Below, piece after piece: positions 11,968 through 63,835 of a DNA stretch of 64,000 nucleotides. The position numbers and the translations under genes were made by a program. A model generated the notes under the pieces. The model had not been told where the DNA came from, did not search any database, and saw only the letters and a program-made list of their open reading frames with translations. This DNA is from Candidatus Rhodoblastus alkanivorans (GTDB lineage: Bacteria; Pseudomonadota; Alphaproteobacteria; Rhizobiales; Beijerinckiaceae), in contig NZ_JAIVFP010000001.1 in the NCBI RefSeq assembly GCF_022760755.1, positions 637,501-701,500 on the forward strand. The letters run 5' to 3'. Every line of letters starts with the position of its first letter. The stretch's first letter is position 1.

Positions 11968-13290
11968 TCACGCCACGCCGTCCATGCCGTCTCGAAGCGA
12001 CCGGATGCGCTGCATGTGTCGTTCCCGATCGGTCTCGCCGATCAGATCAGGGAGAGCAGATACCAGATCTTGGAAGCGTCCGTTGATCAGGTGGATGCGA
12101 GCATCGCCGCCCGCGACCATCCGCTTAAATGTTTGAAGAAAGGGGTTCGTTGGGTCTGCTACTTCGGTCATCGACTGCGTCCCCTCGGCAAGGTTGTCAG
12201 CGGGCACAAACGCAGGATCACAGATGACGAGGCGGAGCGACATATTGGCTTCGATGGCCGACAGGATTGGCCGGCTGATATGGTCGTCATTGAAGCCGAA
12301 CCCCGAGATCAGGACTGCCGTGTCCGGCTCGCGCAACGCGGCTTGGAATGAGCCGATCATATCGAGATACGGCACCTCGAAGCTCTCCTGATATTTGCTT
12401 GAGCGCGGATAGATTAGGACCGGTTTGCCCTCTGGCCCGCGCGATCGAAAAATGTCCGCCGCCTGCCTACGCCAATCCAGCGAGCCGTGCAGCTTGTAGA
12501 GGTGAAACACATTCTCGATGTAATCGGGCGCGTCTCGCAAGCCCGACCTCCGCACGATGTCGAACTCGAAATGGCTTCTGTCGTAGACTTGGTCCATCCC
12601 GTGCGAGAAGCCATCAATGATCGTGAAGCGATGGCGCCGCGCTGCTTCCTCGAAGCACAGGTCATAATTCGTTGTGAACAGCTTCATCCGCGCTTTGCGC
12701 ACACCGCGGCGGCCGATCTTCTGAATGAGCCCGGCATGCGCGTCCAGAATGGTCGTCTGGTCAACGAAATTAACACGCGCTAGGATTGCCTTTTCCGCTG
12801 CCTCCACGAAATTGTGGACTTTCTTGTAGGTCTCGTCCTCGATCGCAGTCTCGTGCAACTCGAGATAGAGTTTACATAAGGTGAGCAGGCGCTCGATATT
12901 GTCATCAATCTTCGCGCTAGCGAAGGTGTCGCACACCTCTTTGAATGCTGCGGCTCCGACCTCTGACTCGACTGCCTGCCATACGTCTCACATGCCCGCC
13001 GGAGTCAGCTTCTCTGCCGTGTTCGTCGCGGCGAAGGAGGAGCCCGTGCCTGTGAGAACTGCCACGTTTGTTGCATTCAGGATGTTGAGCAAGCTGCTCT
13101 CGATGGCGCGCTGCGTTCCAGAGTCCTCGATCCGATTGCCTTCTGCGTTCATCTTGTCCTTGAACGCGCGCCAGCCATCTCCTGGAACGAAGAGCCGCAA
13201 ATTCGCGGCATCGGCCGCCCGATCCTTCCAATAGGTCATCCGCCCAAACCCGCCTACTTTCGCCCCATCCAGATCTAGCAGATTTTGCAA
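11968..13290 (-). pseudogene. SIR2-family NADase of a SIR2-HerA pair, with an in-frame TGA
   Basis: A 440-codon frame from about 13290 (TTG; ATG alternative at 13239) to 11968 with a single internal TGA at 12990-12988. Before it, NVAVLTGTGSSFA gives the NAD-binding G-x-G-x-S loop of SIR2 proteins. After it, the same frame continues DVWQAVESEVGAAAF and then FTTNYDLCFEEAA, FHLYKLHGSLDW and ISGFGFNDDH, all typical of SIR2_2 proteins. The TGA lies where a residue such as Trp (TGG) would fit. SIR2 partners deplete NAD+ when HerA-SIR2 senses phage. With both genes broken the pair is probably inactive. The herA start overlaps the stop. Confidence 0.85.
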
Positions 13291-16279: not shown

Positions 16280-16693
16280 TTGGCCGGGTCGAGCGCACAG
16301 CGGCGGAAGAAACCGCGGCTGCGGACGGAATTGTCCGAGGCCGACGAACGACGCCTGGCCGAGGCAGTGGCTTTGTTCGGCTTGCCCAAGGCCGAAGTCG
16401 TGCGCCGGCTGATCCGCGCCTCCGTCCAGGCCGGGCCGGCGCTGTCGGCCGAGAACACGCGCGCCGTGGTGGAGTTGGCGAGCCAGGTGCGGATGGTCGG
16501 CCGCAACCTGGCGCAGGTCCTCAAAGCGATCCATCGCGGCCAGGCCGTGCGTCTCGAAGACACCGAGGCGGTCTGGCGCGGGCTGCATGAGGTCGTCGCG
16601 GCGATCAATGACGAACTCACCGAAATGACCGTCGCCTATGGCTCGAAGCTGCGCCGCGAGGCGCAGCTGACGCTGCGCGAGGAGGCCGAATGA
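16280..16693 (+). CDS. MobC-like relaxosome accessory protein
   Basis: A 137-residue basic protein with a ribbon-helix-helix-like N-terminus (RLRTELSEADERRLAEAVAL) and a MobC-type C-terminal part (VELASQVRMVGRNLAQVLKA). It starts at TTG 16280, close behind a strong GGAGGGG ribosome site at 16271-16277, and its stop overlaps the relaxase start by 4 bp. MobC-type proteins help the relaxase melt and nick oriT. Confidence 0.75.
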   Translation: MAGSSAQRRKKPRLRTELSEADERRLAEAVALFGLPKAEVVRRLIRASVQAGPALSAENTRAVVELASQVRMVGRNLAQVLKAIHRGQAVRLEDTEAVWRGLHEVVAAINDELTEMTVAYGSKLRREAQLTLREEAE

Positions 16694-31915: not shown

Positions 31916-33106
31916 TCAGACGGCCACTGCGGGCAGTCCGACGGTGGCATCATCTCTCAAGCTGGCGATGGTTTCCAGCGTCATGTAGCGGCAGCGCTGC
32001 ACCGCCCATTCATCGTTCTGCTCCAGCAGGATGGCGCCTACGAGCCTTGTGATGGCTGCGTCGTTGGGGAAGATGCCGACGACCTCGGTGCGGCGTTTCA
32101 CCTCGCCGTTGAGACGCTCCATGCCGTTGGTCGAATGTATTTTTTGCCAGTGCTCCTTGGGAAAGGTCATGTAGGCCAGCACGTCGGCCTCGGATTCATC
32201 CATGAAACCGGCGAGCTTGGACAGTTTTGGGCGCAACTGGTCGGCGACCTTGCGCCATTGCGTCTTCGCGGCTTCGGCGCTGTCCTGCGCGAAGGCGGTG
32301 GCCATGAAGGCGGAGACGACGCGCCGCCCGCTCTTGCCGGCGTGGGCGAGGGCGTTGCGCATGGTGTGGACGCGGCAGCGTTGCCAAGTGGCGTTCATCA
32401 ACTTGGAGACAGCGGCCTTGATGCCTTCATGGGCGTCCGAAATCACAAGTTGAACCCCGCGAAGGCCGCGCCGGCGCAGCTTGCGGAGGAACTCGGTCCA
32501 GAAGGTCTCCGCCTCCGAGGGGCCGACGTCCATGCCCAGCACTTCGCGTCTGCCGTCGGCGTTGACGCCGATCGCAACAATCACCGCGGTGGAGACGATG
32601 CGGTTGTTGCGCCGCACTTTGACATAGGTGGCGTCGAGCCAGACGTAGGGCCATTCGCCTTCGAGCGGTCGGGTGAGGAAGGCCTGGACCTTCTCGTCGA
32701 TCTCCTCGCACAGGCGCGACACCTGGCTTTTCGAAACGCCGGAGCCGCCCATCGCCTTGACGAGTTCATCGACCGATCGGGTCGACACGCCCTGCACATA
32801 GGCCTCCTGGATCACGGCGGCGAGCGCCTTCTCCGCCATCCGGCGCGGCTCAAGGAAGCTCGGGAAGTACGAGCCCTTGCGCAGTTTCGGGATGCGCAGT
32901 TCAACCGCGCCGGCGCGCGTCTCCCAATCGCGATCGCGGTAGCCGTTGCGCTGGGCAAGCCGCGCGGCGGGATTGCGTTCGCCGTGGGCGGCGCCGGTCA
33001 GCGCGCCGATCTCCAGTTCCATCAGCCGCTCGGCGGCAAAGCCGATCATCTCGCGCAGAAAATCCGTGTCGGGCGCCTTTTCCACAAGCGCGCGAAGGCT
33101 CATCAT
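31916..33106 (-). CDS. IS256-family (mutator type) transposase
   Basis: A 396-residue intact transposase. DDE residues are visible in [23 protein letters not shown] and [20 protein letters not shown], the last being the family signature. An IS3 element begins at 33121, only 15 bp before the start codon. The upstream terminal repeat of this IS256 copy has therefore probably been lost, and the element may no longer move by itself. Its 3' side abuts the decayed end of the IS630 gene. Confidence 0.9.
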
Positions 33107-34450: not shown

Positions 34451-34683
34451 CAACATTCATCGTCTGGAATAGGCAGTTCTTCCCGAACGTTACGCGTTGC
34501 ACGCTCGGTCATTGCGATCAAATACTCACGCTCCGTTGCCCCGCGGATTGCGACCAGTTGGCCGATCCCTATCCGGGTCAACAACACCGAGTTGGTGACA
34601 TCGATAGCAACGCGGCTCGTATCGACCGAGGCTACACGCCCGATTTTGTCGTCGTCGGCAAACTGGAGAGCGGCTTCAGTCAT
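34451..34683 (-). pseudogene. herA: Second HerA-type gene, only the N-terminal barrel remains
   Basis: The frame starts at ATG 34683, overlapping the sir2 stop (ATGA), and encodes about 77 codons: MTEAALQFADDDKIGRVASV, then VLLTRIGIGQLVAIRGATER. This is the HAS-barrel start of a HerA ATPase. It is cut by the IS3 element ending at 34450, and no ATPase part is found on the other side. The rest was therefore deleted along with the rearrangement. Confidence 0.7.
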
Positions 34684-35717
34684 GGTTCGAGCACCTCGGC
34701 AACGAATGCGCCTAGATCCCATAGGGCCAGGCCGGAAAAGAAGGTTTCGACGCCAGCGACATGAACGCTGGAGCCCGCGATACCGCCCAACTCGGCGCGA
34801 TGAATGGCAATGACAGTGGGGCACTCTGCCACCAACTTTAATGCATTCGCCGATAGGGTGTGGGTCAGGAGGAGTGTCGGGACGCCGCTGCGGATTCGTG
34901 GCGTCAAGTGAGTTTCGAGATGGTCGTCGTTAAAGCCGTAGCCGATCACCAAGAAGCGACTCGCGCGGTCGATCGCCGCATTAGCGCGTTCACGATGACG
35001 ATCAAAGGGGCTTTCGTAACCGTTTCGAAACTTGTTCAGGCCTGGCGTGATGATGAGCCTCGGAAGGTCGAGATCACCGGAATAGCGGACTGGCTTCCCG
35101 TCGCGATGATACCAATCGAGGCTGCCGTGTGGCTTGAAGACGTTGGCGCGCAGACGATAGCGATACTGCACCTGCTTTCCCCGAAGTGTCACTTCCCGAC
35201 AAAAGCTCAAACGACTTTCCGCCTCGTTCAGCTCTCCCGCAAAGTGGCCAACAAAAAGAGTATCGACGCCGAGACCCGCCTCTTCCACTGCCACTTCGAT
35301 CAGGCGGTCATAATTCGTCGTGACGATCGGAAGGCCAGTTTGCGGTTTCAGCAACTGCTTTATCAGCCGTGTGAACCGCAACGTCCTCGTGCGGGAGAAA
35401 ACTTCCGCGACAATCTGCCGCTCTCGGGAAGCTATCAATTCTGCCGTCCGAGTTACGATCGCGGTTTCCAACCCAGGCGTTGGGGGCACCTCCAACAGCG
35501 CCGCCTCCAGCCCCTTGGCAGATATAAGCGGCGATATTGCCGTCCACCTGTCCCTGTCTGCAGCCGCCAAGCCAGGAATTACCGTCGTGTCGAGATGGCT
35601 GGCCAGCTCTCCCATGCCTGGCAGCCCCTCGGCGCATGACAGACCGGAACCAACGATCGTCACGAGGCCGTCGGTCAAATGCTTCTGAAGCATGAGTTTC
35701 AGGTCATGAAGTTCCAA
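34680..35717 (-). CDS. SIR2-family protein of a second SIR2-HerA pair, intact orphan
   Basis: A 345-residue SIR2_2-type protein. The NAD-binding loop is VTIVGSGLSCAEGLPGM. Further family blocks are LPIVTTNYDRLIEVA (with N and D), ANVFKPHGSLDWYHRDG and FLVIGYGFNDDHLETHL. In characterised SIR2-HerA systems this subunit degrades NAD+ once the HerA complex senses phage. The frame is uninterrupted, unlike the sir2 gene at 11968-13290, but its HerA partner is destroyed. It may be silent or freed from control. No divergent regulator is visible upstream. Confidence 0.85.
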   Translation of the reverse strand: MELHDLKLMLQKHLTDGLVTIVGSGLSCAEGLPGMGELASHLDTTVIPGLAAADRDRWTAISPLISAKGLEAALLEVPPTPGLETAIVTRTAELIASRERQIVAEVFSRTRTLRFTRLIKQLLKPQTGLPIVTTNYDRLIEVAVEEAGLGVDTLFVGHFAGELNEAESRLSFCREVTLRGKQVQYRYRLRANVFKPHGSLDWYHRDGKPVRYSGDLDLPRLIITPGLNKFRNGYESPFDRHRERANAAIDRASRFLVIGYGFNDDHLETHLTPRIRSGVPTLLLTHTLSANALKLVAECPTVIAIHRAELGGIAGSSVHVAGVETFFSGLALWDLGAFVAEVLEP

Positions 35718-36201: not shown

Positions 36202-36588
36202 ATGAGACAGAAATCCGGACCGGCGAAGGCGCCGGCAGAAGCTGTTTTGAAGGATATCCGTCGGGCGACGCGGCGGCATTTCTCTGCCGAGGACAAGATC
36301 CGCATTGTGCTGGAAGGCTTGCGCGGCGAGGAAAGCATCGCCGAACTGTGCCGGCGCGAAGGCATCGCCACCTCGATGTATTACGGCTGGTCGAAGGAGT
36401 TCCTTGAAGCCGGCAAAAAGCGTCTGGCCGGCGACACGGCCCGCGCCGCCACCTCGGACGAGGTCAAGACGCTGCGCCGGGAGGCGCAAGCGCTGAAAGA
36501 GGTCGTGGCCGATCTCACCCTCGAAAACCGCCTGCTCAAAAAAAGCGTGATCGCGGATGGGGTCGAGGACCTGGAGGACGAGGCATGA
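36202..36588 (+). CDS. IS3-family OrfA
   Basis: A 128-residue OrfA with an HTH region (FSAEDKIRIVLEGLRGEESI, then LCRREGIATSMYYGWSKEFL) and a C-terminal coiled coil (TLRREAQALKEVVADLTLEN). Seven A at 36538-36544 form a slippery site; the -1 frame is open from there into orfB. The element has cut a parB-like gene on its left. Confidence 0.85.
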   Translation: MRQKSGPAKAPAEAVLKDIRRATRRHFSAEDKIRIVLEGLRGEESIAELCRREGIATSMYYGWSKEFLEAGKKRLAGDTARAATSDEVKTLRREAQALKEVVADLTLENRLLKKSVIADGVEDLEDEA

Positions 36589-37571
36589 GATATTCGCCCT
36601 CCGAAAAGTCCGAGATCATCCGCCTGGTTGAGGAGTCGCATCTTTCCGCATCGAAGACCCTGGAAAAACTCGGCATTCCCCGTTCGACCTTTTACCGCTG
36701 GGTCGAGCGGCTGCGAGCGGGCGGCCCCGAGGCTTTGGCCGATCGGCCGTCGCGCCCTGAGCGCAACTGGAACCGCATTCCCGAGGAGACGCGCCAGGCG
36801 ATCGTGGCCATGGCGCTGGAGCAGCCGGAGCTCTCGCCCCGCGAACTCGCGGTGCGCTTCACCGACGAGGCGAAGTATTTTGTCTCGGAGGCCTCGGTCT
36901 ACCGCCTGCTCAAGGCCCACGACCTCATCACCAGCCCGGCCTATATTGTCATCAAGGCCGCCAACGAGTTCAAGGACAAGACGACGGCGCCAAACCAGCA
37001 ATGGCAGACCGATTTTACGTATCTCAAGATCACCGGCTGGGGCTGGTATTATCTGTCGACGATTCTCGACGACTACTCGCGTTTTATCGTGGCCTGGAAA
37101 CTCTGCGCCACGATGAAGGCCGAGGACGTCACGGCGACGCTCGATCTCGCCCTCCAGGCGGCGAAGCTCGATCAGGTCGCGGTCGTTCATCGGCCGCGGC
37201 TGCTGTCGGACAATGGCGCGTCTTATATCGCCGAGGACCTCGCCAATTATCTCAAGGCCAAGGGCATGAGCCACGTGCGCGGCGCGCCCTATCACCCTCA
37301 GACACAGGGCAAAATCGAACGCTGGCATCAAACGCTCAAGAACCGCATCCTGCTGGAAAACTATTACCTGCCCGGCGAACTGGAGCAGCAGATCGCCGCC
37401 TTTGTCGACCACTACAATCATGGCCGCTACCATGAAAGTCTCGACAATCTAACGCCCGCCGACATCTACTTCGGGTTCGGGCGCGGAGACGCCATCCTGC
37501 TCGAACGCGAAAACATCAAACGCCAGACTATGCGAAACCGCCGCTTGCAGCATCGCGCTCAGGCCGCGTAA
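36585..37571 (+). CDS. IS3-family OrfB (integrase-core transposase)
   Basis: A 328-residue OrfB overlapping OrfA by 4 bp. An N-terminal HTH (SASKTLEKLGIPRSTFYRWV) precedes the rve core with Asp in WQTDFTYLKIT, Asp in LLSDNGASYIAE and Glu in PQTQGKIERWHQTLKNRI. It is intact. A standalone product is possible from the coupled start, and the fusion by -1 frameshift. Confidence 0.85.
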   Translation: MRYSPSEKSEIIRLVEESHLSASKTLEKLGIPRSTFYRWVERLRAGGPEALADRPSRPERNWNRIPEETRQAIVAMALEQPELSPRELAVRFTDEAKYFVSEASVYRLLKAHDLITSPAYIVIKAANEFKDKTTAPNQQWQTDFTYLKITGWGWYYLSTILDDYSRFIVAWKLCATMKAEDVTATLDLALQAAKLDQVAVVHRPRLLSDNGASYIAEDLANYLKAKGMSHVRGAPYHPQTQGKIERWHQTLKNRILLENYYLPGELEQQIAAFVDHYNHGRYHESLDNLTPADIYFGFGRGDAILLERENIKRQTMRNRRLQHRAQAA

Positions 37572-38108
37572 AATCTAACCCCAGTGAGCCAGAGCCTCCG
37601 TTCCCGAGCGTCGCGAATTGTCTCAAATCTTCTGACGACGGACACACGGCGTCGAAATGCCCGCGATCCGCGAGGCCATTCACATATTTACCCAGTTCCG
37701 CGTCGATCGTGACATCGACCAACGCCGCGTCGATTTGCGCTGCCTCATCCGCGGCTTCGCCCATTCCTGAATTTGCTGCCGCGCAAAGAAGCCGCCGATT
37801 GTTTCGACATCGGCCGATCCATTCGCGTGGCCTTCCGATCGCCGCCGGGCGTCTCGACCGGCCGTTCACCGGAGCATTCGTGGTGTCGCCATTGATCCGG
37901 ATGAGTCACAGCAAATTTTTTTCGTATAACCAACAATTTAATTCGTTTGTCGCCGAAATGCGGATCATTCAAATTGACCTCGATCATCGCCGTCGACGAG
38001 ATCGTGCCGATCATGCTGAAGTTCAAGGTGTTTTCGTCCTCGCTCGCCAGGGAGGAAAGCGCGTCCCGGACCATGCCGGGCGCCGATGCACAAACAGAAG
38101 GCTGAACA
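37572..38108. other. Gap between IS3 element and cytochrome c gene
   Basis: About 540 bp. It should hold the right end of the IS3 element and the promoter of the cytochrome c gene. On the minus strand two weak frames (about 37766 to 37528 and 38074 to 37745) have protein-like stretches but no recognisable family and may be remnants. An AT-rich patch at 37917-37943 (TTTTTTTCGTATAACC region) could be promoter DNA. Confidence 0.35.
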
Positions 38109-38477
38109 ATGAAGACCGCAACGTTTCTCCTGTCCGCATTGGTCGTCGTCGGCTACGCGGCTTCCGCGGCCGCCGCCGACGTGAACGCCGGCAAGAAGGT
38201 GTTCTATAAGTGCGCTATCTGCCATACGGCGGTTAAAGGCAGAAACAGCATAGGCCCGTCGCTCTTCGACGTAGTCGGGCGAAAAGCCGCTTCGCTGCCC
38301 GGCTACAACTTCTCCGATGCGCTCAAGGCCTCCAACAAGATCTGGGATGAAAAGACGCTCGACGCCTGGCTGACCAATCCGCAGAAAGATGTGCCGGGGA
38401 CCAAAATGACATTTCCCGGCCTGCCCAATGCTGAAGATCGCGCCAATGTGATCGCCTATCTGGCGACGCTCAAATAA
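38109..38477 (+). CDS. Class I periplasmic cytochrome c
   Basis: A 122-residue c-type cytochrome with a Sec signal peptide (MKTATFLLSALVVVGYAASA). Heme c binds at CAICH near residue 38, and the axial Met is in VPGTKMTFPGLPNAEDRANV; the ending ANVIAYLATLK is typical of c550/c2-like proteins. It lies 132 bp upstream of nosR in the same direction and may be an electron donor for N2O reduction. Donor function is inference from position. Confidence 0.85.
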   Translation: MKTATFLLSALVVVGYAASAAAADVNAGKKVFYKCAICHTAVKGRNSIGPSLFDVVGRKAASLPGYNFSDALKASNKIWDEKTLDAWLTNPQKDVPGTKMTFPGLPNAEDRANVIAYLATLK

Positions 38478-38609
38478 TTGTGTTCTCGGCCGGGTGCGTT
38501 CGGACGCAGGCGGCAGTTTCTTCTTTGGCCTGGAACAGGCGACTTCGCGCATGGCCTGCGCGAAAGCGGTGATTTGCGCGCCGGTTGTTCCGCTCAAACG
38601 GGGCGTAAT

Positions 38610-40820
38610 GTGAGGCTCGGGGTAAAACATCTGTTCGGGACGCTGGCCTTGCTATGTTGGGCGCTTGTCGCCGGCTCGGCATTTGCCTCGGAAAGCCATC
38701 TGGCGGCCTATTTAAAGCAAGTTTCCGCCGGAGAATTGGCGCCTGGCGCCGACCATTACGGGCCCGTCGGGGGCAAGCCGGACGTCGCTAAAATTTTCTC
38801 CGGCGACAAGCTGGCTGGTTATGCTTTCGTCAATGCCGACTGGGTGAATTCCACCGGTTATTCGGGTCAGCCGATCGAAATATTGGAAGGACTTTCCGCC
38901 GACGGCAAGATCACTGGCGCCCGTTTGATGAAGCATCACGAGCCGATCGTGCTGATCGGCATCCCGCCAGCGCGCATTGAACATTTTATTCACGGCTATA
39001 TCGGGCGCTCGGTTCTGGCCACCAGCCAGTCTGCTTCGTCCAGCCGGCCGCCGGTGGATATCGTGAGCGGCGCGACCGTGACCGTAACGGTCATCGCCGA
39101 GAGCATGGTGCGTGCGGCGGAAAAGGTGGCGGAAGCCGAGAAAATGCCCGGCGCCCCGACTTCGCGGAAAGTCGTGACGCGTGAACTCGATGCCGCCCAT
39201 GTCGCGCCTGCTGACTGGAGCAGCCTCGTCAAGGAAGGCGCAGTGGAAAGGCTGAGCCTATCGGTCGGGAACGTCACCGCCGCCTTCAAACGCGCGGGCA
39301 ATCAGCAAGGCGCCGATCATCCTGAATCCGACGATCCCGCAGCGTCTTTTATCGACCTCTATATCGCGCCTGTGTCGGTTCCGGCGATCGGGAAACGCCT
39401 GCTCGGCGAACAAGGCTTCGCCGCTTTGCAAAAGTCGCTGGCGCCGAAACAGCAGGCCGTTCTGATTGCGGCTAACGGCATCTATTCCTTCAAGGGCTCG
39501 GGCTATGTGCGCGGCGGCATTTTCGACCGCTTCGAGATTCTACAAGGCGATTCGAGCATACGTTTTCGCGACCTCAACCATTCCCGCCTGAGCGACGTTC
39601 ACGTGGCCGGCGCGCCGGTATTCCAGGACGTGGATCTTTTCACCGTCCCGACCTCCGCCACGCTCGATCCCACCCAGCCGTGGCGCCTGCAATTGCTGGC
39701 GCAGCGCGCCTATGGCGCGCGCGACAAGGCCTTCCTGACGTTCCGCCTGAACTATCAGCTTCCGGAAGCCTATCTCAAGTCGCTGCCTCCGCCTTCGCTT
39801 TCCACCAGGATCACCACCGCACTGTTTGGAAGCGCGGCGGGGCAGGCCGCCGAACCGCCGGTTTGGTTTACCTTGTGGCAGGCGAAGACGGCCCAAGTCG
39901 GCGTGATGCTCGCCGCCATCGCTCTCCTGACCCTGATCTTCTTCTTCCAGGATTGGCTGGTGCGCCGGCCTGTCCTTTACGATCGGGTACGCCTGGGTTT
40001 CCTGGCCTTCACCCTAGTCTGGATCGGCTGGCTCACTCAGGCGCAATTGTCGGTCGTCAATGTCTTCGCCTTCCTCGGCGCCCTGCGGACCAATTTCCGC
40101 TGGGATTATTTCCTGATGGCGCCTCTGATCTTCATTTTGTGGTTCGCGGCCGCGGCGTCGCTGCTGTTCTGGAATCGCGGCGCCTATTGCGGCTGGCTGT
40201 GCCCGTTTGGCGCCTTGCAGGAGTTGGTCAATCGCCTGGCGCGCCGCCTGAAAGTTCCACAGCTGAAAATTTCTTTCGGTCTGCACCAGCGGCTGACAGC
40301 CCTCAAATATATCGTCTTCCTGGTCCTGTTCGGCATTTCCCTGAGCGATCTCGGGCTTGCCGAACGCATGTCGGAAGTCGAGCCGTTCAAGACGGCGATC
40401 ATCCTGCGTTTCGCACGGGAATGGCCATTCGTCCTCTATGCGGGGGCGATGGTCGCGGCCAGCATTGTCGTTGAACGCGCCTTCTGCCGCTATCTCTGCC
40501 CGTTGGGCGCGGCGCTCGCCATCCCGTCACGCCTACGCATGTTCGATTGGCTGCGGCGCTATCGCGAATGCGGCAATCCCTGCCAGAGATGCGGCAACGA
40601 ATGCCCCGTTCAGGCTATCCATCCCGAAGGGCATATCAATCCGAACGAATGCATCCAGTGCCTGCACTGCCAGATGCTCTACCACCACGACCAAAAATGC
40701 CCGGTCATGATCCAACGGCGACTCAAGCGCGAAAGGCGCGCGGCTTCGTCGCAATCCGTCGACCTGCCGCCCAAAACAAAAATTTCGGCGCAGCGAGTGG
40801 ACACTACGTCGCCGCCTTAG
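38610..40820 (+). CDS. nosR: NosR, N2O reductase maturation and electron-transfer flavoprotein
   Basis: A 736-residue inner-membrane protein that supports nos expression and NosZ activity. I chose GTG 38610 because a signal segment follows ([20 protein letters not shown]); the frame is open to 38478. The periplasmic FMN-binding domain has the [13 protein letters not shown] flavinylation motif. Several membrane helices follow, with two C-x3-CP motifs (YCGWLCPFG and FCRYLCPLG). The C-terminal ferredoxin-like part has Cys clusters [13 protein letters not shown] and [18 protein letters not shown]. The length and domain order are complete. nosZ follows after 65 bp. Confidence 0.95.
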
Positions 40821-40885: not shown

Positions 40886-42808
40886 ATGACCGATCATGAA
40901 CACGAACACGAACCCAAAACCAGCGTCAGCCGCCGCAACCTGTTGGGCGGAACAGCGGTCGTCGGCGCGGCGGCGATTTCCGGCGCCGGATCCTATATGG
41001 ATTTCGTCCGAACCGCGAAGGCGGCGACGCAAAATATCGCCGAATCCGAGGTCAAGCCGGGTGACCTCGACGAATATTATGGGTTCAACAGCAGCGGCCA
41101 GACCGGGGAGGTCCGTATCCTCGGAATACCATCCGGTCGTGAGATCATGCGCATCCCGGTGTTCAACCGCGACAGCGGGACCGGCTGGGGCCTGACGAAC
41201 GAGAGCAAAAAGATACTGACCGAGGGTCTGCTGCCGGAAACCAAGAAGTTTCTCGAAACGCGGGGCGGCAATTACCACAATGGAGACGCGCACCACCCGC
41301 ATATGTCGTTTACGGACGGCACTTACGATGGTCGCTACATTTTCATCAACGACAAGGCCAATTGTCGCGTCGCGCGCATCCGCTGCGACGTGATGAAGTG
41401 CGACAAGATCATCGAGGTTCCCAACGCCTCCGACATCCACGGCCTGCGCCCGCAAAAATATCCGCGCACCGGCTATGTCTTCTGCAACAGCGAGCACCCG
41501 ATCCCCATTCCGAACGACGGCAAGGTCGTCGACGATCCGACGAAGAATTATTGGTCGGTGTTCACCGCCGTTGACGGCGACCAGATGAAGGTCGCCTGGC
41601 AGGTCCTGGTGGACGGCAATCTCGATAATACCGACGCCGACTACCAGGGCAAATACGCCTTCTCGACCTGCTATAACCCGAACAAGGGCACCAATTTGAG
41701 CAGCATGACCGACCACGAGCAATCCTGGTGCGTCGTATTCAACCTCAAGCGAATCGAACAGGCCGTCGCGTCGGGTGATTATAAGGAAATCAACGGCGTG
41801 AAGGTGGTCGATGGCCGCCACGGATCGAAATATACGCGCTACATTACGATTCCCGGTTCGCCCCATGGCGTCAACACTGCGCCCGACGGCGTCCATGTCG
41901 TGGTCAACGGCAAGCTGTCGCCGACTTGTACGGTCATCGACGTCCGCAAGCTCGACGATCTGTTCGATGACAAAATCAAGCAGCGCGACGCGGTCGTGGC
42001 GGAGCCGCAGCTTGGCCTTGGCCCGCTACACACGGCGTTCGACGGCAAAGGCAACGCCTATACGACCGTTTTCATCGACAGCCAGATCGTCAAATGGAAC
42101 ATCGACATGGCGCGGCGCGCCTATGCCGGCGAGAAGGTCGAGCCGGTGCTGCAGAAGCTCGACGTCCATTACCAGCCCGGCCACAATCACTCGACGATGG
42201 GCGAGACCAAGGAGGCGGACGGCAAATGGCTCGTCTCCCTCAACAAGTTCTCCAAGGACCGCTTCCTGCCCGTCGGGCCGCTTCATCCCGAAAACGATCA
42301 GCTGATCGATATTTCGGGCGACAAGATGGTGCTGGCAGCGGACCATCCCGCCTTCGCCGAGCCGCATGACATGTTGATCGTGCACCGCTCTAAGGTCAAT
42401 CCCATCAAGGTCTGGAAGCGCGACGATCCCATGTGGGAAGATGTCCGCAAACAGGCGGAAAAGGATGGCGTCAAGCTGGAGACGGCGGCGAATATCATTC
42501 GCGACGGCAACAAGGTGCGCGTCTATATGCACTCCAACGCGCCGCAATACAGCCTCGAGAAGATCGAGGTCAACGAGGGTGACGAGGTCACCATCGTCCT
42601 CACCAACATGGACGACATCGAGGATCTGACCCACGGCTTCACCATCGTCAGATACGGAATCATGATGGAGATTTCGCCCCAGGAAACGGCATCCGTCACC
42701 TTCATAGCCGACCGCCCTGGAGTTCATTGGTATTATCGCCAATGGTTCTGCCACGCACTTCACATGGAAATGTCCAATCCGATGATTGTGCATCCCAGGA
42801 AGGTTTGA
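40886..42808 (+). CDS. nosZ: NosZ, nitrous-oxide reductase (clade I), with Arg at the first CuA cysteine
   Basis: A 640-residue periplasmic enzyme reducing N2O to N2. ATG 40886 follows GGAGG (40877-40881). The Tat signal is [15 protein letters not shown], placing it in clade I. The beta-propeller CuZ histidines are present ([30 protein letters not shown]). In the cupredoxin domain H583 (DLTHGF), W620, C622, H626 and M629 are present ([11 protein letters not shown]). Residue 618, normally the second bridging Cys of CuA (YYC-x-WFC), is Arg, codon CGC at 42737-42739, one transition from TGC. The last 12 residues ([11 protein letters not shown]) also differ from the common GRMLVEP ending. CuA may be defective. 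Confidence 0.95.
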
Positions 42809-42810
42809 AC

Positions 42811-44076
42811 ATGCGGCGCGCGCGCTCCTTCTTGCTGATTGCGGCCGTCGTAGCCGCGGCGGCGGGCGGCGCGCGCGCCGCGGACATCGCCGTGCCGGCC
42901 GGCGGCGGCCTCGCCGAGGTTGTCGCCCGGGCCGCGCCCGGCGACGTGCTCCATCTGGCGTCAGGCGCTCATCCCGGCGCGGTGGTGATCGCCACGCCGC
43001 GTCTGACACTTGAAGGCGAGCCCGGCGCGATCGTCGACGGGCAGGGCAAAGGCAGCGCCGTCACCATCAGGGCGCCCGGCGTGACTTTGCGGGGTCTGAC
43101 GATTACGGGATCCGGGCTCAGCCTTTTCGACAAGGATTCCGGCGTTTTCATTGATCGTGGAGCTGACCACGCGACCGTCATCGACAATCATTTCGAAAAT
43201 GATCTGATCGGCGTCTACCTCGACGGTCCGAAGTTCGCACTGGTCGAGCACAACCGCATCGATGGCCTGCGGACCATGCGGCTGAATGAGCGCGGACCGG
43301 GGGTCGAAGTGTTCGACACGCCAGGCTCGCGCATCATCGACAATGATTTCAGCTACGGGCGCGACGGCGTGTTTTCCGTCAACAGCCGCGACAACGAGGT
43401 GCGCGGCAACCGCTTCCGCGACCTGCGTTTCGCCGTTCATTTCATGTATACCAACAATAGCTCCGTCATCGACAACGTTTCCGTCGGAAACGACATCGGC
43501 TACGCCATGATGTATTCCGATCGGCTCATCGTGATGGGCAACGCCTCCGCACGTGATCGTGAGCACGGACTGCTGTTCAATTACGCCAATAACTCGCTGG
43601 TAGAAAACAATGCCGTGCGCACAAGCGATAAATGCGTCTTCATTTACAACTCAAACAAGAACCGTTTCTCGGGTAATTGGTTTCAAGGCTGCAATATCGG
43701 CATTCATTTCACCGCCGGGTCCGAACAGAATCAGATGACCGGCAATTCCTTCGTCAATAGCCGCACCCAGGTCATGTATGTGGGGACGACGAGCCTGGAC
43801 TGGTCGGTCAAGGGACGCGGCAATTATTACAGCGACAATCCCGCCTTCGACCTCAACGGCGACGGGATCGCCGATGCACCCTACCGGCCCAACGATTTGA
43901 TGGATCAGGTCATCTGGCGCGCGCCGGAGGCCAAGCTGTTGCTGAACAGTCCGGCGGTCCAGATTGTCCGCTGGGCTCAGGCGCGCTTTCCGGCGATTCA
44001 TCCGGGCGGCGTGTTCGACTCGGCGCCGCTGATGAAGCCGCTGCCTCCGCCCGCGCTGAAACGGTTGAACGGATGA
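42811..44076 (+). CDS. nosD: NosD, periplasmic CuZ-site maturation protein
   Basis: A 421-residue protein with a signal peptide (MRRARSFLLIAAVVAAAAGG) and a right-handed beta-helix of CASH/parallel repeats (N-rich rungs such as VIDNHFENDLIGVYLDGPKF and NSLVENNAVR). It works with the NosFY transporter to supply sulfur for the CuZ cluster. It starts 2 bp after the nosZ stop, and its stop overlaps nosF by 4 bp. Confidence 0.95.
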   Translation: MRRARSFLLIAAVVAAAAGGARAADIAVPAGGGLAEVVARAAPGDVLHLASGAHPGAVVIATPRLTLEGEPGAIVDGQGKGSAVTIRAPGVTLRGLTITGSGLSLFDKDSGVFIDRGADHATVIDNHFENDLIGVYLDGPKFALVEHNRIDGLRTMRLNERGPGVEVFDTPGSRIIDNDFSYGRDGVFSVNSRDNEVRGNRFRDLRFAVHFMYTNNSSVIDNVSVGNDIGYAMMYSDRLIVMGNASARDREHGLLFNYANNSLVENNAVRTSDKCVFIYNSNKNRFSGNWFQGCNIGIHFTAGSEQNQMTGNSFVNSRTQVMYVGTTSLDWSVKGRGNYYSDNPAFDLNGDGIADAPYRPNDLMDQVIWRAPEAKLLLNSPAVQIVRWAQARFPAIHPGGVFDSAPLMKPLPPPALKRLNG

Positions 44077-44972
44077 AACACGAGTCCCTCGGCATGAACG
44101 CGGTCGAGATGCGCGACATCACCAAGCGCTATGGCCGGCTCGTCGCGGTCGACGCCGTCGACCTGACGTTACGCGCCGGGGAATGCGTCGGACTCGTCGG
44201 CCATAATGGCGCCGGCAAAAGCACCCTGATTAAAATGATGCTGGGACTGCTGCCGCCGACCTCCGGTTCGGTGAAAACGCTCGGCCAGGAGCCCGGCGCG
44301 GCCGCCGCCGCGGCGGTCCGGCGCGAATTGGGCTATCTGCCGGAAAATCTTGCGCTTTATCCGTCCCTGACGGGCGCCGAGACGCTTAAATTTTACGCGC
44401 GTCTCAAGCGGGGGACGACGGAGGGGAACGCGGCCTTGCTGAAGCGCGTTGGACTGGAGGCGGCGGCGGGGCGACGCGTTGGAACCTATTCCAAGGGAAT
44501 GCGGCAAAGACTAGGGCTTGCTCAGGCTTTGCTCGGCGCTCCGCGCGCCTTGTTCCTCGACGAGCCGACGACGGGGCTCGATCCCGCCTCGCGCCAGGAT
44601 TTTTATGCGATCCTGCGTGAATTGCGCCGCGACGGCGCGATGGTTCTGCTGTCGTCGCACGTGCTGGCGGAACTGGAAGGACAGGTCGACCGCGTAGTCG
44701 TCATGAACCGTGGCCGCAAGGTCGCCGACGGCGCCATTACCGAATTGCGCCGCGTCGCCGCCATCCCGCCGCGCATCCGCTTCCAGCCCGCCGCGGCGCA
44801 TGAAAGCTTTGAGGGCTGGACTCCCATCCCCGGCGGCCAATTGGAACGTTGCTGCACGGAAGAGGAAGTCGCCGGAATTCTGCGCGCCTTGCCGGCTTCC
44901 GCGCGCGAGATAGAAATCCTCAGGCCGTCCCTGGACGATCTTTACGCCGAATTTCAGAAAGGGGTCTTGTGA
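44073..44972 (+). CDS. nosF: NosF, ABC transporter ATPase for CuZ maturation
   Basis: A 299-residue ATP-binding subunit. Walker A is GHNGAGKSTLIKMM, the signature is YSKGMRQRLGLAQALL, Walker B is ALFLDEPTTGLDP and the switch His is in LLSSHVLAELE. It pairs with NosY and NosD to deliver a sulfur species for NosZ. Both ends overlap neighbours by 4 bp, so nosDFY are translationally coupled. Confidence 0.95.
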   Translation: MKHESLGMNAVEMRDITKRYGRLVAVDAVDLTLRAGECVGLVGHNGAGKSTLIKMMLGLLPPTSGSVKTLGQEPGAAAAAAVRRELGYLPENLALYPSLTGAETLKFYARLKRGTTEGNAALLKRVGLEAAAGRRVGTYSKGMRQRLGLAQALLGAPRALFLDEPTTGLDPASRQDFYAILRELRRDGAMVLLSSHVLAELEGQVDRVVVMNRGRKVADGAITELRRVAAIPPRIRFQPAAAHESFEGWTPIPGGQLERCCTEEEVAGILRALPASAREIEILRPSLDDLYAEFQKGVL

Positions 44973-45796
44973 GCCAGACGCTGCTCATCGCCGTCAAGGA
45001 ATGGCGCGACGGATTGCGCAATCGCTGGGTGATCGCGACGACCGCGCTTCTCGCCGCTCTGGCGCTGACGCTTGCCTTTCTCGGCTCGGCGCCGACAGGG
45101 ACGGTCAAGGTCGGCGGGCTCGCGGTGACCGTCGTGAGCCTCTCCAGCCTTACCATCTTCCTAGTACCGCTGATCGCCTTGCTGCTGTCCTATGACGCGA
45201 TCGTCGGCGAAATCGACCGCGGGACGATGTCGCTGCTGCTGACTTATCCGGTCGCGCGTTGGCAGGTGCTGCTCGGCAAATTCATCGGACATCTCGCCAT
45301 TCTGGTTTTCGCCACCGTGGTCGGCTATGGAACTGCGGGCATGGCCGCGCAATGGTCCGGAAGCGGCGATCCCGACGCCTGGGCCGCGTTCGCCCTGCTG
45401 ATCGCGACTTCGGCCCTCCTTGGCGGCGTCTTCATCGCCATCGGCTATCTGATCAGCGCCATGGTCGGCGACCGCGGCGCCGCCGGCGGAATCGCGGTGG
45501 GAGTCTGGCTGTTCTTCGTGGTGATATATGACATGGCCCTGCTCGGAGGACTGGCGGTCGACCAAGGCCGCACGATGACCGCGTCCATGCTCAACTTTTT
45601 GCTGCTGGTCAATCCGACCGACGCTTATCGGCTGCTCAATCTGACCGCGACGAAAGACGTGAGCGCCATCTCGGGCGTCGCCGTGCTCGGCGCGCATTCC
45701 GGCATTGGGCCGCAAGCGCTGATCGGCGCGCTGGTCGCGTGGATTTTGGCGCCGCTGGTCGGCGCCATGGCCCTTTTCGCGCGGAGGCAGGTATGA
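44969..45796 (+). CDS. nosY: NosY, ABC transporter permease for CuZ maturation
   Basis: A 275-residue integral membrane protein with six hydrophobic segments (for example TIFLVPLIALLLSYDAIVGE and VGVWLFFVVIYDMALLGGLA). The start is GTG 44969, overlapping the nosF stop. The motif EIDRGTMSLLLTYPVARWQV is typical of ABC-2-type NosY. It ends in a 4-bp overlap with nosL. Confidence 0.93.
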   Translation: MSQTLLIAVKEWRDGLRNRWVIATTALLAALALTLAFLGSAPTGTVKVGGLAVTVVSLSSLTIFLVPLIALLLSYDAIVGEIDRGTMSLLLTYPVARWQVLLGKFIGHLAILVFATVVGYGTAGMAAQWSGSGDPDAWAAFALLIATSALLGGVFIAIGYLISAMVGDRGAAGGIAVGVWLFFVVIYDMALLGGLAVDQGRTMTASMLNFLLLVNPTDAYRLLNLTATKDVSAISGVAVLGAHSGIGPQALIGALVAWILAPLVGAMALFARRQV

Positions 45797-46308
45797 AGCG
45801 CAGGCGCTTCCTTCTTGTCCTGCTGGCGGCGCCCTTACTGGCGTCCTGCAAGAGGAACGGCGATGCCGAAGCCATGCCGCCGCCGCGCGAGATCACGGAT
45901 TCGTCGGTCGCCTATTTCTGTGGCATGTCGCTCAACGAACATAATGGTCCGAAAGCGCAGATCTTCATTCGGGATCAGAAAGATCCCTTCTGGTTCTCCA
46001 GCGTGCGCGACGCCTTCGCCTTTCTCAAACTGCCGGAAACGCCCAAGGCGGTGGTGGCGGTCTATGTCAACGACATGGCGAAAGCCAGGAACTGGGACCA
46101 TCCGGGTCCTGGAACCTGGATTGACGCGCACAAGGCCGTTTACGTGATCGACAGCCGCCGCAGCGGCGGAATGAACGCGGCCGAGACGATCCCCTTCGGT
46201 ACCGCCGCCGCCGCGCAACAATTCGTAAAGGCCGAGGGCGGGAAGATCGTTGGTTTCGACGACGTGCCAAGTGATTATGTCCTCGGCTCGAAGACGGGAG
46301 GAAAATGA
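45793..46308 (+). CDS. nosL: NosL, copper chaperone lipoprotein
   Basis: A 171-residue lipoprotein with lipobox LLASC near residue 18. The copper-binding C-x-M (YFCGMSLNEH) lies in the conserved N-terminal block. The rest matches NosL (KDPFWFSSVRDAFAFL, VYVNDMAKARNWDHP, GMNAAETIPFGT). It supplies Cu(I) to NosZ in the periplasm. The stop overlaps nosX. Confidence 0.93.
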   Translation: MKRRRFLLVLLAAPLLASCKRNGDAEAMPPPREITDSSVAYFCGMSLNEHNGPKAQIFIRDQKDPFWFSSVRDAFAFLKLPETPKAVVAVYVNDMAKARNWDHPGPGTWIDAHKAVYVIDSRRSGGMNAAETIPFGTAAAAQQFVKAEGGKIVGFDDVPSDYVLGSKTGGK

Positions 46309-47306
46309 TGCGCTCCACGCGCCGCCGTTTTATCGCCATCGCCGCCGCCGCCGGCGGTCTGCCGCTGCTGCCCTTTGCCGCCGGTTGGGGCGCGCCGTCG
46401 AAAAATCCGCTTTTGCGGTTCTGGTCCGGCGCGGCGCTCGGCGCCGACGCCAGCATGCAGATCCATCATCCCGATCCGGCGGTCGCCGACCGGTTGATCG
46501 CCGCGAGCCTCGCCGAGGTCGGGCGTCTGGAGAAGCAGCTGAGCCTTTACCGGCCGGACAGCGCCATTTCACGCCTCAATCGCGACGGCGTTCTGGACGA
46601 CCCGCCGTTCGACCTGTTGCGGGCTTTGGCGGAAAGTCTTCGTTACGGCGAGATCACCGGCGGCGCCTTTGACGTGACGGTCCAGCCTTTGTGGAATCTT
46701 TACGCGGCGCATTTTTCGCAACCGAACCCTTCGCCGAATGGTCCCTCACAGCGCGAACTGGCGGCGGCGGTGGCGCGAATCGGCCAGGACGCCCTGGACG
46801 TAACGGAAAGCCGCATCAGCCTGACCCGTCCGGCGATGAGCGTCACGCTCAACGGCATAGGCGAAGGCTATGTCACCGATCGCGTCGTGGAGCTGTTGCG
46901 CGCCGGCGGCGTGGAGCACGCCATGGTCAATATGGGCGAAATCTATGCGCTCGGCGCGCGGCCCGCCGGCGGCTCCTGGTCAGTCGGTCTCGAGGACCCG
47001 CGCGCGCCGACGAAAATCACCGAAGAGGTCGCCTTGCAGGATCGCGCGCTCGCGACCTCTGCCGGCTACGGCACGACTTTCGATCCGGCCGGACGTTTCA
47101 ATCATTTGTTCGATCCGCGCAGCGGCCACACGAGCTGGCGCTGGCTTTCGGTTTCGGTGGAGGCCGCGACGGCGACCGAAGCCGACGCGCTTTCAACCGC
47201 CTTCAGTCTGATGCCGGAGGAAGCGACGGCGCCGATCGTCCGCAAGCTTGGGCTGACCGCGCATTTCATCCGCCCCGACGGCTCGCGGCTGACGCAGCGG
47301 GCGTAA
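46305..47306 (+). CDS. nosX: NosX, ApbE-type FMN transferase for NosR
   Basis: A 333-residue ApbE-family flavin transferase with a Tat-like signal (STRRRFIAIAAAAGGLPLL). Family residues are seen in GGAFDVTVQPLWNLY, LNGIGEGYVTDRVVELL, MVNMGEIYALG and FNHLFDPRSGHTS. It attaches FMN to the Thr of NosR. It is the last gene of the nosRZDFYLX operon, and a palindromic element follows. Confidence 0.93.
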   Translation: MMRSTRRRFIAIAAAAGGLPLLPFAAGWGAPSKNPLLRFWSGAALGADASMQIHHPDPAVADRLIAASLAEVGRLEKQLSLYRPDSAISRLNRDGVLDDPPFDLLRALAESLRYGEITGGAFDVTVQPLWNLYAAHFSQPNPSPNGPSQRELAAAVARIGQDALDVTESRISLTRPAMSVTLNGIGEGYVTDRVVELLRAGGVEHAMVNMGEIYALGARPAGGSWSVGLEDPRAPTKITEEVALQDRALATSAGYGTTFDPAGRFNHLFDPRSGHTSWRWLSVSVEAATATEADALSTAFSLMPEEATAPIVRKLGLTAHFIRPDGSRLTQRA

Positions 47307-47330: not shown

Positions 47331-47420
47331 TTTGCGCATATTCCCGAAAAGTGGGTCCGGCTTTCGGACGAGAATATGCGCAAAAACGAGAAGCTCGATC
47401 GCGTTCGGCGAACGCGATCG
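47331..47420. repeat. Complex palindromic intergenic element after nosX
   Basis: TTTGCGCATATTC (47331-47343) pairs with GAATATGCGCAAA (47372-47384) around CCGAAA...TTTCGG. Then GATCGCGTTC-GGC-GAACGCGATC (47397-47419) forms a second perfect hairpin. The core GAAAAGTGGG...CCGG...TTTCGG resembles a dispersed intergenic repeat of Rhizobiales genomes. It may end nos transcription. Only one copy is present in the window. Confidence 0.55.
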
Positions 47421-47448
47421 AACGTGCAAAGGATGGGGGAGATGGCGG

Positions 47449-48330
47449 ATGGGCGATACCGGCCAAGTCAATGTTCGGGTGGGTTCCACCGACGATCTGC
47501 TTTCGCTCGCCGAGGCTTTGGAACAGGAGGCCGCCGCGCGCTACCGCAGTCTGGCGGCGCGCATGGCGCGGCAGGGCGACGCCGAGCTGGCGGCGCAATT
47601 CGAGAGCCTGGCCAAAATGGAGGATCGCCACGCGGAGCAGATCGGCGAACGCGGTTTGCGTATGTCGGGTCGCGCGCCCAAGTTCGCCCGCGCGAAATGG
47701 GAGACGCCGCCGGGATATGACGAGGATGAAGCGCGCGGGGCCGAGTTGAGCGCCTATCATGCGCTGGCCTTCGCCGTCCGCAATGAGGAGCGCGCCTTCG
47801 CCTTTTACAGCTATGTCGCCGCCGAAGCGGAAAACGCGGAGATTCGCGCCCTCGCGGAAGAAATGGCGTCCGAGGAATTGCAGCACGCCGCGCTGCTCCG
47901 GCAATTTCGCCGCCGCGCCTTCCGCCAGCAGCGGCCGGCGACGATCGAAACGCCGCAAGATATCGGCGAATTGCGCGCGCTGGCGCGACGCTGGGACGCG
48001 GAAGCCGCCGCCGCCCACGCCGCTCTGGCCGATGCGCTCGACGCCATCGGAGAAACATCCGACGCCCGAATCTTTCGTCGCCTAGCCGAAGACGAGAAAC
48101 TATCCGCCGAAGGCGCCGCGGCGGCGAGGACGCGCACCTTGCGCGGCGCCGCGGATGGCTTGCGGGCGCTGGAAGAAAGCTTCGATCGTTACGCTTCGAT
48201 CGCCGAACGCGCCAAGGATGAGAAAGTCGTGGCCGAGGCGCAAAAGCTCGCCGGCCGGATTGTCGCCCGTCTGGCCTTGGCCGGAGGCGCGCGCAGGAAC
48301 ACACTGTTGATCGGCGAAAAAGGCCCATGA
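47449..48330 (+). CDS. Rubrerythrin/ferritin-like protein
   Basis: A 293-residue all-helical protein of the ferritin-like superfamily from ATG 47449 (MGDTGQVNVRVGSTDDLLSL). Two ferritin-like four-helix units can be seen. Metal-ligand Glu and E-x-x-H pairs are in EALEQEAAARY, KMEDRHAEQI, VRNEERAFAFY and SEELQHAALL. A C-terminal helical repeat lacks a rubredoxin domain. Such proteins handle iron or peroxide. It follows the nos operon after the palindromic element and converges on the LysR gene. Confidence 0.75.
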   Translation: MGDTGQVNVRVGSTDDLLSLAEALEQEAAARYRSLAARMARQGDAELAAQFESLAKMEDRHAEQIGERGLRMSGRAPKFARAKWETPPGYDEDEARGAELSAYHALAFAVRNEERAFAFYSYVAAEAENAEIRALAEEMASEELQHAALLRQFRRRAFRQQRPATIETPQDIGELRALARRWDAEAAAAHAALADALDAIGETSDARIFRRLAEDEKLSAEGAAAARTRTLRGAADGLRALEESFDRYASIAERAKDEKVVAEAQKLAGRIVARLALAGGARRNTLLIGEKGP

Positions 48331-59258: not shown

Positions 59259-61595
59259 TCATTCCTCGACCTGGACGACGGTGTGGACGTCGGGCAGGAG
59301 CGAGAGATCCATGCGGTGCTTGGAGCCGTAGGACGGCACGCCGAGTTCCTCTTCGCGCAGGTCCCAGCCGGCGGGCAGGTCCCAGAAGGACTTGAATTCC
59401 GACTTGAACTTTTCGGACAGGCCGAAGCTCGTCGCGAACATGTGCCGCACCTGGACGGAGGCGTGTTTGTCGAGGATGCGCTGGCGCTCTTCCTTCATCC
59501 ATTCGCGGGTCGGCACGGCGCGCGCCAGGCGCTCCTTGCGGATTTCCGCGCGCCGCGCCTGCGTCTTCGCCGCGTCGACCGTGAATACGCCCTTGGCGTC
59601 CACGGCGAAGACCGCGCCATAGACCTTGGCGGCATATTCCGGCAGCAGGAATTTTTGATTCAGATCGTCCTCGATGGCCTTGGGGTCGCGGTCGATGGGA
59701 TCGCCGAAGCCCGGTCCGCCGCGCAGGTAGTTCAGATAGAGGTCGTGGTTTTCGTAGCAATCCTCCGTCGTGACGCATTGCTTGTCACGCTTGACCGCCG
59801 CGGTCGCGTCGATGTGGCGCTCGTAATCCGGATGGGTCGGATCGAGATCGCCGCCGAGCGGCAGCGAGTCGCCGACTGCGATGCGCTCCTTCAGGCCGGT
59901 GTTGTGGGCTTCGAAGCGATAGCCGGTGGCCGAGGGATAGCCGCCCATCATGCCCCAGTCGCTGTTCATGAAGCCATTGCCCATGAAGAACATGGTCCAG
60001 TCCTGGGCGTTCCACACCATGCGCAAGGTCTCGAAGCCGCAGCCGCCGCGATATTTGCCGTAGCCGCCGGAATTGGCCTTCACATTGCGGCCGAGATAGA
60101 GAAGCGGCTCGGCCATTTCCCAGATCTCGATGTCGCCCATGTCGCCTTCCGGGTTCCAGATCGCGGCGGCGTGGTTCAACCCGTCCTTGACCGCGCAGGC
60201 ACCGGTTCCGCAGGACGAAGCCTCGAACGAGTTGACCGCGTGGATTTCACCGTCCTGGTTGATGCCGCCGCCCTGCAGCCAGTTCGACGTATTGGCGTTG
60301 CCGGCGTTGACTTCCTCCAGATAGCCGCGGCTGAAATAGGATTGACCTAGACCGCGCCACAAAGCCGCCCAGCCGGACACCAGGAAGTGCCAGGCATAGG
60401 CGTGGCCGGTGCGGCGGTCGTCGGGATTGCACCAGGAGCCTTTGGGCAGGTGGAAATCGGTGGCGAAATAGGCGCCGTCATTGATGCGCTGCGTCGGCAC
60501 CAAAGTTTGGCACATCATCACCCAGATCCCCGAGGTGAAGGCGACCTGATGGGCGTTGAAGGTATGCCAGCCCCAGCGGCTCGCGCCCTCGAAATCGAGC
60601 TTCCACGAACCGTCGCCGCGAATGGTCATTTCGCAGGGCGAATGCATGATGGAGTCGAGCTTGGCGAAGGCAGATGAAACCTGCACGTCGGGATGCTTGA
60701 AGGGTACGTCGACGAAGGCCACCTTGCGATATTTGCCCGGCAGGGTCATCGCCTTGATGCGGCCCAACAGGCCGCGACGGCCTTCCTCGATCACCTCGCT
60801 AGCGAATTTCTCGTAAGCCTCGAGACCGTCGGCGCGGATCACCTCCTCGACCAGATCGCGGATCATGTGGCAGCCGGCGATGCGGGTGCGTTCGTCCAGG
60901 ATCCAGTATTTCGGCGTGCGCACCGAGCGCTGCGATTCATGCAGCCAGTCGCGCAGGGGCGTGTCGTTCACGCCGGTCTTCCGGCAGGTGATCATGTAGC
61001 CGTCGCCGAAGCGCTGCACCTGGCCGGTGGACATCGAGCCGGGCGTCACCGCGCCGGTGTCGATGACGTGGGTGACGCCGCCAACCCAGCCGATCAGCTT
61101 GTTCTCCCAGAAGATCGGAACGATGGTCGCGATGTCGCAAGGATGCACATTGCCGATGGCGCAGTCGTTGGTCGTGAACATGTCGCCGGGATTGATGCCC
61201 GGATTCCCCTCCCAATTGTTCTCGATCATATATTTGATCGCCGCGCCCATCGTGCCGACATGGATGATGATGCCGGTCGAGGTCACCACGCAGTCGCCGG
61301 CCGCGTTATAGAGGGTGAAGCAAAGCTCGCCCTCCTGCTCCACGATCGGGCTCGCCGCGATCTTCTTCGCCGTTTCGCGGGCGTGGACCACGCCGCCGCG
61401 CAGCTTCGAGAACAGCTTCTCATAACGGATCGGATCGCTGTCGCGAAAGGCGAGCTTTTCGAGGCCGTTGTAATAGCCGGTCGCTTTGGTGCGCTCGATG
61501 ATGGCGTCGCGATATTGCTTCAGCGTCAGTCCATTGCCGAGCAGATTGCCGTAATTGGTCGCGAGGCCAGCGAAATTTTTGTCCTGCATGTTCAT
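59259..61595 (-). CDS. acxB: Acetone carboxylase alpha subunit (hydantoinase B/oxoprolinase family)
   Basis: A 778-residue HyuB-type subunit (MNMQDKNFAGLATNYGNLLG). Family blocks include IVEQEGELCFTLYNAAGDCV, GDMFTTNDCAIGNVHPCD and SSCGTGACAVKDGLNHAAAI. Mn-dependent carboxylation of the activated enol takes place here. It starts 15 bp after acxA. The frame is intact and full length. Confidence 0.93.
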   Translation of the reverse strand: MNMQDKNFAGLATNYGNLLGNGLTLKQYRDAIIERTKATGYYNGLEKLAFRDSDPIRYEKLFSKLRGGVVHARETAKKIAASPIVEQEGELCFTLYNAAGDCVVTSTGIIIHVGTMGAAIKYMIENNWEGNPGINPGDMFTTNDCAIGNVHPCDIATIVPIFWENKLIGWVGGVTHVIDTGAVTPGSMSTGQVQRFGDGYMITCRKTGVNDTPLRDWLHESQRSVRTPKYWILDERTRIAGCHMIRDLVEEVIRADGLEAYEKFASEVIEEGRRGLLGRIKAMTLPGKYRKVAFVDVPFKHPDVQVSSAFAKLDSIMHSPCEMTIRGDGSWKLDFEGASRWGWHTFNAHQVAFTSGIWVMMCQTLVPTQRINDGAYFATDFHLPKGSWCNPDDRRTGHAYAWHFLVSGWAALWRGLGQSYFSRGYLEEVNAGNANTSNWLQGGGINQDGEIHAVNSFEASSCGTGACAVKDGLNHAAAIWNPEGDMGDIEIWEMAEPLLYLGRNVKANSGGYGKYRGGCGFETLRMVWNAQDWTMFFMGNGFMNSDWGMMGGYPSATGYRFEAHNTGLKERIAVGDSLPLGGDLDPTHPDYERHIDATAAVKRDKQCVTTEDCYENHDLYLNYLRGGPGFGDPIDRDPKAIEDDLNQKFLLPEYAAKVYGAVFAVDAKGVFTVDAAKTQARRAEIRKERLARAVPTREWMKEERQRILDKHASVQVRHMFATSFGLSEKFKSEFKSFWDLPAGWDLREEELGVPSYGSKHRMDLSLLPDVHTVVQVEE

Positions 61596-61610
61596 GGTGG
61601 AATCCTCCCC

Positions 61611-63758: not shown

Positions 63759-63835
63759 GGGGTCCTCCGCTGTGATTTTTCGAAACGTCCGGAGGCTCAA
63801 CCACAATCGAACCGGCGCGCTTCACGGAGTAGTCC

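Follow-up and report, generated by a model that had tools for sequence, protein, structure and literature searches.

The stretch analysed here (the window, 64,000 nucleotides) carries a nos cluster on its plus strand, in the order cytochrome c, nosR, nosZ, nosD, nosF, nosY, nosL, nosX and ferritin-like gene, so that the nosRZDFYL(X) arrangement is whole. The features of this locus are the following:

37974..37987, plus strand: FNR/NnrR-like box with a single mismatch, located 122 bases upstream of the cytochrome gene and weak when taken alone
38109..38477, plus strand: c-type cytochrome upstream of nosR, whose orthologues in genomes G006 and G008 (63% and 69%) also precede nosR
38478..40820, plus strand: nosR, open reading frame (ORF) as listed, the true start being probably further downstream
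40886..42808, plus strand: nosZ, encoding a TAT-dependent nitrous oxide reductase of clade I that carries C618R (ORF, profile and solved-sequence matches)
42737..42739, plus strand: nosZ codon 618, which reads CGC (Arg) where homologues have the first bridging CuA cysteine (sequence and alignment)
42811..44076, plus strand: nosD (profile match and homologues)
44073..44972, plus strand: nosF, ABC ATPase (profile match and homologues)
44969..45796, plus strand: nosY, ABC permease with a GTG start (homologues)
45793..46308, plus strand: nosL, copper chaperone (named from its similarity to the nosL genes of relatives, without an NCBIfam match)
46305..47306, plus strand: nosX, ApbE-type flavin transferase (profile match and homologues)
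47332..48330, plus strand: ferritin/rubrerythrin-like gene linked to the nos clusters of relatives, start uncertain

The same gene order was found in two genomes of the same genus, G008 and, over two contigs that may be misplaced, G006. Concerning the FNR/NnrR-like box, the window contains nine matches compared to 3.78 expected, a number that was reached in three of 100 shuffles. The first-pass annotation had described the rest of the nos operon as intact, and a comparison of invariant positions with those of relatives bears this out: no such position is changed in NosR (0/119), NosF (0/33), NosY (0/30), NosL (0/16), NosX (0/26) or the ferritin-like protein (0/12), and a single one in NosD (1/49, N317S). 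NosX additionally shows one change at a near-invariant position (Q187E), and the upstream cytochrome shows changes at six of 29 invariant positions, defined from only five distant homologues (41-45%). Damage to the nos genes by an IS3-type element was considered and rejected, since the match to this element ends near position 37645, upstream of the FNR-like box and of the cytochrome gene, and the nos ORFs are whole.

The nosZ ORF encodes a protein of 640 amino acids and contains neither stop nor frameshift. This protein scores 1122 bits against TIGR04244 (TAT-dependent nitrous-oxide reductase; cut-off 625), which places it in the clade I family, and it gives a two-domain match to profiles and solved sequences, its best matches among the latter being nitrous oxide reductases (1fwx, 5i5i, 3sbp and 1qni). 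A twin-arginine signal (SRRNLLG, residues 15-21) was read by eye from the sequence. Seven histidines located by motif (H136, H137, H185, H327, H382, H433 and H494), which we take to be the CuZ ligands, are all present. Codon 618 lies in the context TAT TAT CGC CAA TGG TTC TGC and, as the first-pass annotation had reported for this full-length gene, the given sequence reads CGC at this place. In two solved-sequence alignments, the residue facing Arg618 is the first Cys of WYYC; the pair of bridging cysteines is incomplete (Arg618 and Cys622). The other CuA residues, i.e. the two histidines (H583 and H626), the methionine (M629) and the tryptophan (W620), were found where they had been announced, as was C622, and none of them varies among the homologue rows in which they are covered. 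Overall, the window protein shares with the solved clade I NosZ its length, TAT signal and two-domain match, and it resembles clade I NosZ also in its seven CuZ histidines, five of the six CuA residues and operon context, but it differs from them by an Arg that replaces the first bridging CuA cysteine. Neither a compensating ligand nor an extra domain was seen in the sequence or in its profile and solved-sequence matches. The nosZ gene is single-copy, with no second, intact copy elsewhere in the genome, and the subunit II of the cytochrome oxidase encoded by the same genome keeps both CuA cysteines.

The prevalence of this substitution was evaluated on an alignment of 112 clade I homologue rows, 111 of which reach codon 618 (the fragment L084 stops short). 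The first-pass annotation had asked whether close homologues share the Arg: none of these 111 rows has it, all of them carrying Cys (99 TGC and 12 TGT), and Cys is likewise found in 98 of the 98 rows left after removal of sequences at least 98% identical. The homologues were the best 80 of 474 relatives plus further retrieved loci, and the survey is thus a sample; a distant NosZ with Arg could escape retrieval, although one of the six query peptides contained Arg. NosZ matches came from 144 plasmid records, and the site was read in two of them (L092 and L093). The Sec-type NosZ loci L085, L086 and L088-L091 (three genomes), excluded from the clade I counts, also possess both cysteines. A search with the CuA motif written as a DNA pattern, codon 618 being left free, matched 29 of 398 genomes of the phylum and 25 of 385 genomes of the class, four genomes (including the one studied here) being in both lists and some being also among the 112 rows. 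This corresponds to 50 distinct genomes, 49 with Cys and one, the genome under study, with Arg. Two further peculiarities were noticed among the homologues. The NosZ of a metagenome-assembled genome (L002, 4590-6389) has HHPRMS beside the CuZ histidine pair, where all other rows have HHPH. Furthermore, genome G281 harbors a partial second nosZ-like stretch (C2:156638-157081; 63%, residues 267-415 of the query) with an internal TAG, besides a full-length nosZ elsewhere.

Laboratory mutants of CuA ligands exist for Pseudomonas stutzeri NosZ and for engineered CuA proteins. They likewise combine the loss of a ligand with an otherwise whole protein, but were made by mutagenesis, whereas the change described here is found in a natural genome record. 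No report of a natural NosZ devoid of a bridging cysteine was found among the matches listed in the open-licence literature; variation at the CuA tryptophan is described for haloarchaeal NosZ (PMC8301774).

The nearest full-length homologue among the rows aligned, L094 (genome G026, from another genus), is identical at 551 of 639 residues but has Cys at position 618 and Ala at position 98. It ends with the same SNPMIVHP tail, which is common to L002, L003, L004, L087 and L094 (L087 and L094 being practically one sequence); the initial description of the C-terminal tail of the window protein as atypical does not hold. The loci L094/L176 from G026 are almost identical to L087/L177 and L084/L178 from G006 (99.98% over 8.6 kb and 99.95% over 1.8 kb) and were counted as one sequence. 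Since G026 and G006 belong to different genera, this near-identical nos stretch may result from a recent transfer or from a contig wrongly placed in one of them. Methylocella tundrae (L005) encodes a NosZ that is 80% identical to that of the window and has the same nosRZDFYLX order, but its NosZ keeps the cysteine at position 618, no match to the upstream cytochrome was found there, and the ferritin-like gene is located upstream in reverse orientation. Strain T4 of M. tundrae is described as growing by N2O respiration, and the metal-binding residues of methanotroph NosZ are, according to the authors of the same article, mostly conserved (PMC11102522).

Comparison of nosZ with that of L094 gives dS = 0.905, dN = 0.080 and a ratio of 0.088. 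Three-point estimates attribute dN values of 0.042-0.059 and dS values of 0.42-0.70 to the branch of the window gene, compared to 0.032-0.037 and 0.26-0.48 for that of L094. The dN/dS of the window branch (0.07-0.10) is similar to that of the L094 branch, these branch figures being rough since they were obtained by simple counting with dS near saturation (0.9 for the nearest homologue and up to 2.5 for others). Out of 181 NosZ positions that are invariant in the homologues, only two are changed in the window (A98G and C618R), whereas about 180-300 hits would be expected at these codons if the whole branch had evolved neutrally. Therefore, a neutral phase could represent at most about 2-4% of the branch. 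Leave-one-out analysis of 87 rows found no deviation in 62, one in 17, two in six (window included) and three in two. The two deviations of the window thus lie towards the top of the range while remaining within it, eight of the 87 rows having two or more. This normal constraint implies that nosZ was maintained until very recently and that C618R is either a late isolated event or an error. A98G is left unexplained and, like the upper-range count of deviations, weighs against the explanation that we prefer.

The quality of the assembly was controlled on five genes encoding ribosomal proteins or RNA polymerase subunits (named from order and size), compared with their counterparts in the 10 remaining genomes of the genus (8 to 10 per gene). 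Of 2795 positions that are otherwise invariant, 11 carry a change unique to the genome studied here, and none of these changes is radical (BLOSUM62 of -2 or lower), compared to 2 to 24 unique changes, including 0 to 2 radical ones, in the other genomes of the genus. Both rpoB and rpoC are unbroken, and the contig that carries the window measures 4.13 Mb, in an assembly of five contigs. The core genes therefore show no sign of a generally error-prone assembly, but they cannot clear one particular base.

Among the three options that the first-pass annotation had left unranked, i.e. a recent mutation, a sequencing error and an unusual enzyme working without a normal CuA, a recent mutation is favored because no other sequence of the sample has the change, the rest of the gene is fully constrained and the operon is intact, whereas no homologue shares the Arg, which argues against a functional variant. 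On the basis of the sequence comparisons, it is thus probable that this locus carries a normal clade I nosZ that very recently underwent a missense mutation at the first bridging CuA cysteine, destroying CuA and respiratory N2O reduction. In the N2O reductase of Marinobacter nauticus, cysteines 614 and 618 (in its numbering) are described as bridging both CuA coppers (PMC11573801). CuA is reported to receive electrons from cytochrome c550 or pseudoazurin for the reduction of N2O at CuZ (PMC6530538), and each CuA of the head-to-tail NosZ dimer lies, according to PMC7660919, near the CuZ of the other subunit; this article describes both copper centers as essential for activity. Furthermore, the loss of NosL is reported to deplete CuZ but not CuA in copper-sufficient cells, both centers being missing under copper limitation (PMC6530538), which implies at least partial independence between the two sites. 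The C618R protein would still be exported by the TAT pathway and folded, and NosDFY and NosL may still assemble its CuZ. With only one bridging thiolate left, the dinuclear CuA site should not form, electrons from periplasmic donors could then not reach CuZ and N2O respiration would cease, although some viologen-driven activity is conceivable. The most likely result of C618R is the loss of respiratory N2O reduction. By descent and by profile model, the window protein is a clade I NosZ, but in view of its incomplete set of CuA residues, it should not be classified among the competent N2O reductases.

A single-base error of assembly or consensus, or a mixture of strains in the source, is the most serious rival of this recent missense mutation and, albeit rather unlikely, has an appreciable probability; the organism would then have Cys618 and an ordinary NosZ. 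CGC differs by only one base from the codon of most relatives, everything else in nosZ and in the operon is normal and, of the 112 sequences covering the site (window included), no other has the change. However, no radical change was found among the 11 unique ones at the 2795 core-gene positions, rpoB and rpoC are unbroken and the unbroken nos genes lie on a contig of 4.13 Mb, even if none of this clears one particular base. Another explanation is a functional variant, perhaps slow, in which a single copper would be held by C622, H583, H626 and M629, or in which electrons would enter directly at CuZ. The four remaining side-chain ligands are indeed present, as a Cys/His/His/Met set comparable to the one found in blue copper proteins, and the operon is intact, with no sign of further decay; a full-length gene in a complete operon is equally expected under this explanation, which counts against the preferred one. 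Nevertheless, such a variant appears improbable, since Arg was found in no relative, the cysteine never varies in the sample, neither an additional domain nor a ligand that would compensate was seen and both copper centers are called essential in PMC7660919.

An old pseudogene in slow decay would also have lost a cofactor ligand. However, nosZ has no stop or frameshift, its dN/dS is about 0.09, any neutral phase covers at most about 2-4% of the branch and the partner genes keep their invariant positions. Long-term decay was therefore rejected on the constraint of the operon, the dN/dS and the shortness of the neutral phase, and this explanation is very improbable. C-to-U editing of the mRNA, restoring a cysteine at position 618, has an even lower probability: C618R belongs to the type of change that this editing would reverse, but the other unique deviations (A98G in NosZ, N317S in NosD and the 11 in core genes) are not of that kind and, to our knowledge, this editing is not known in bacteria of this group. 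Overall, the finding, although striking, is probably a simple one, i.e. a recent inactivating missense change or else an error.

If the base is real, this locus provides a natural case of CuA ligand loss in an otherwise complete N2O reductase operon. It would also call for caution in metagenomics, since surveys would take such a full-length nosZ, lying in an intact cluster, for an N2O sink while its enzyme is probably dead. If, on the contrary, the variant enzyme worked, CuA would not be strictly required for N2O respiration and the view that it is indispensable would fall; C618R thus offers a cheap natural test of this indispensability. If the base results from a sequencing error, nothing follows.

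Searches of the whole genome found no NarG (above the cut-off in six of 11 genomes of the genus), no copper NirK above the cut-off (one weak match of 38.5 bits, compared to four of 11 genomes of the genus above it) and no heme-copper NO reductase. From these searches for NarG, copper NirK and heme-copper NO reductase, the organism looks like a nosZ-only N2O reducer. Therefore, the loss of NosZ would be costly only when outside N2O is available, and a strain or culture line could retain such a mutation. Photosynthetic reaction-center genes, present in five of the 11 genomes of the genus, are absent from this one. Eight matches to PF02332 (diiron monooxygenase hydroxylase), located around 1369000-1405300 on contig C1 and around 111000-114000 on contig C2 of this genome (G000), point to the oxidation of hydrocarbons or aromatics.

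The region upstream of the nos cluster (window positions 10600-37600) is rich in transposase genes (10628-11506, 31916-33106 and 36585-37571) and contains a gene encoding a MobA/VirD2-type relaxase (16690-19011), which suggests an island or an integrated element. Two frames encoding HerA-like (9179-10483) and SIR2-like (11968-12936) proteins flank the first of these transposase genes, which is of the IS4/5 type. Their matches start at about position 194 of 579 and 112 of 414 of the respective profiles; these frames (9179-12936) are probably the remains of a defense system of the SIR2-HerA type. Another SIR2-like protein, encoded at 34680-35717 beside IS elements upstream of the nos cluster, matches a SIR2 model of PADLOC along the whole length of the model (1-344 of 345). 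Finally, the minus strand of the window encodes Hydantoinase B and A type subunits at 59259-63806, and our guess is that this pair is possibly an acetone carboxylase.
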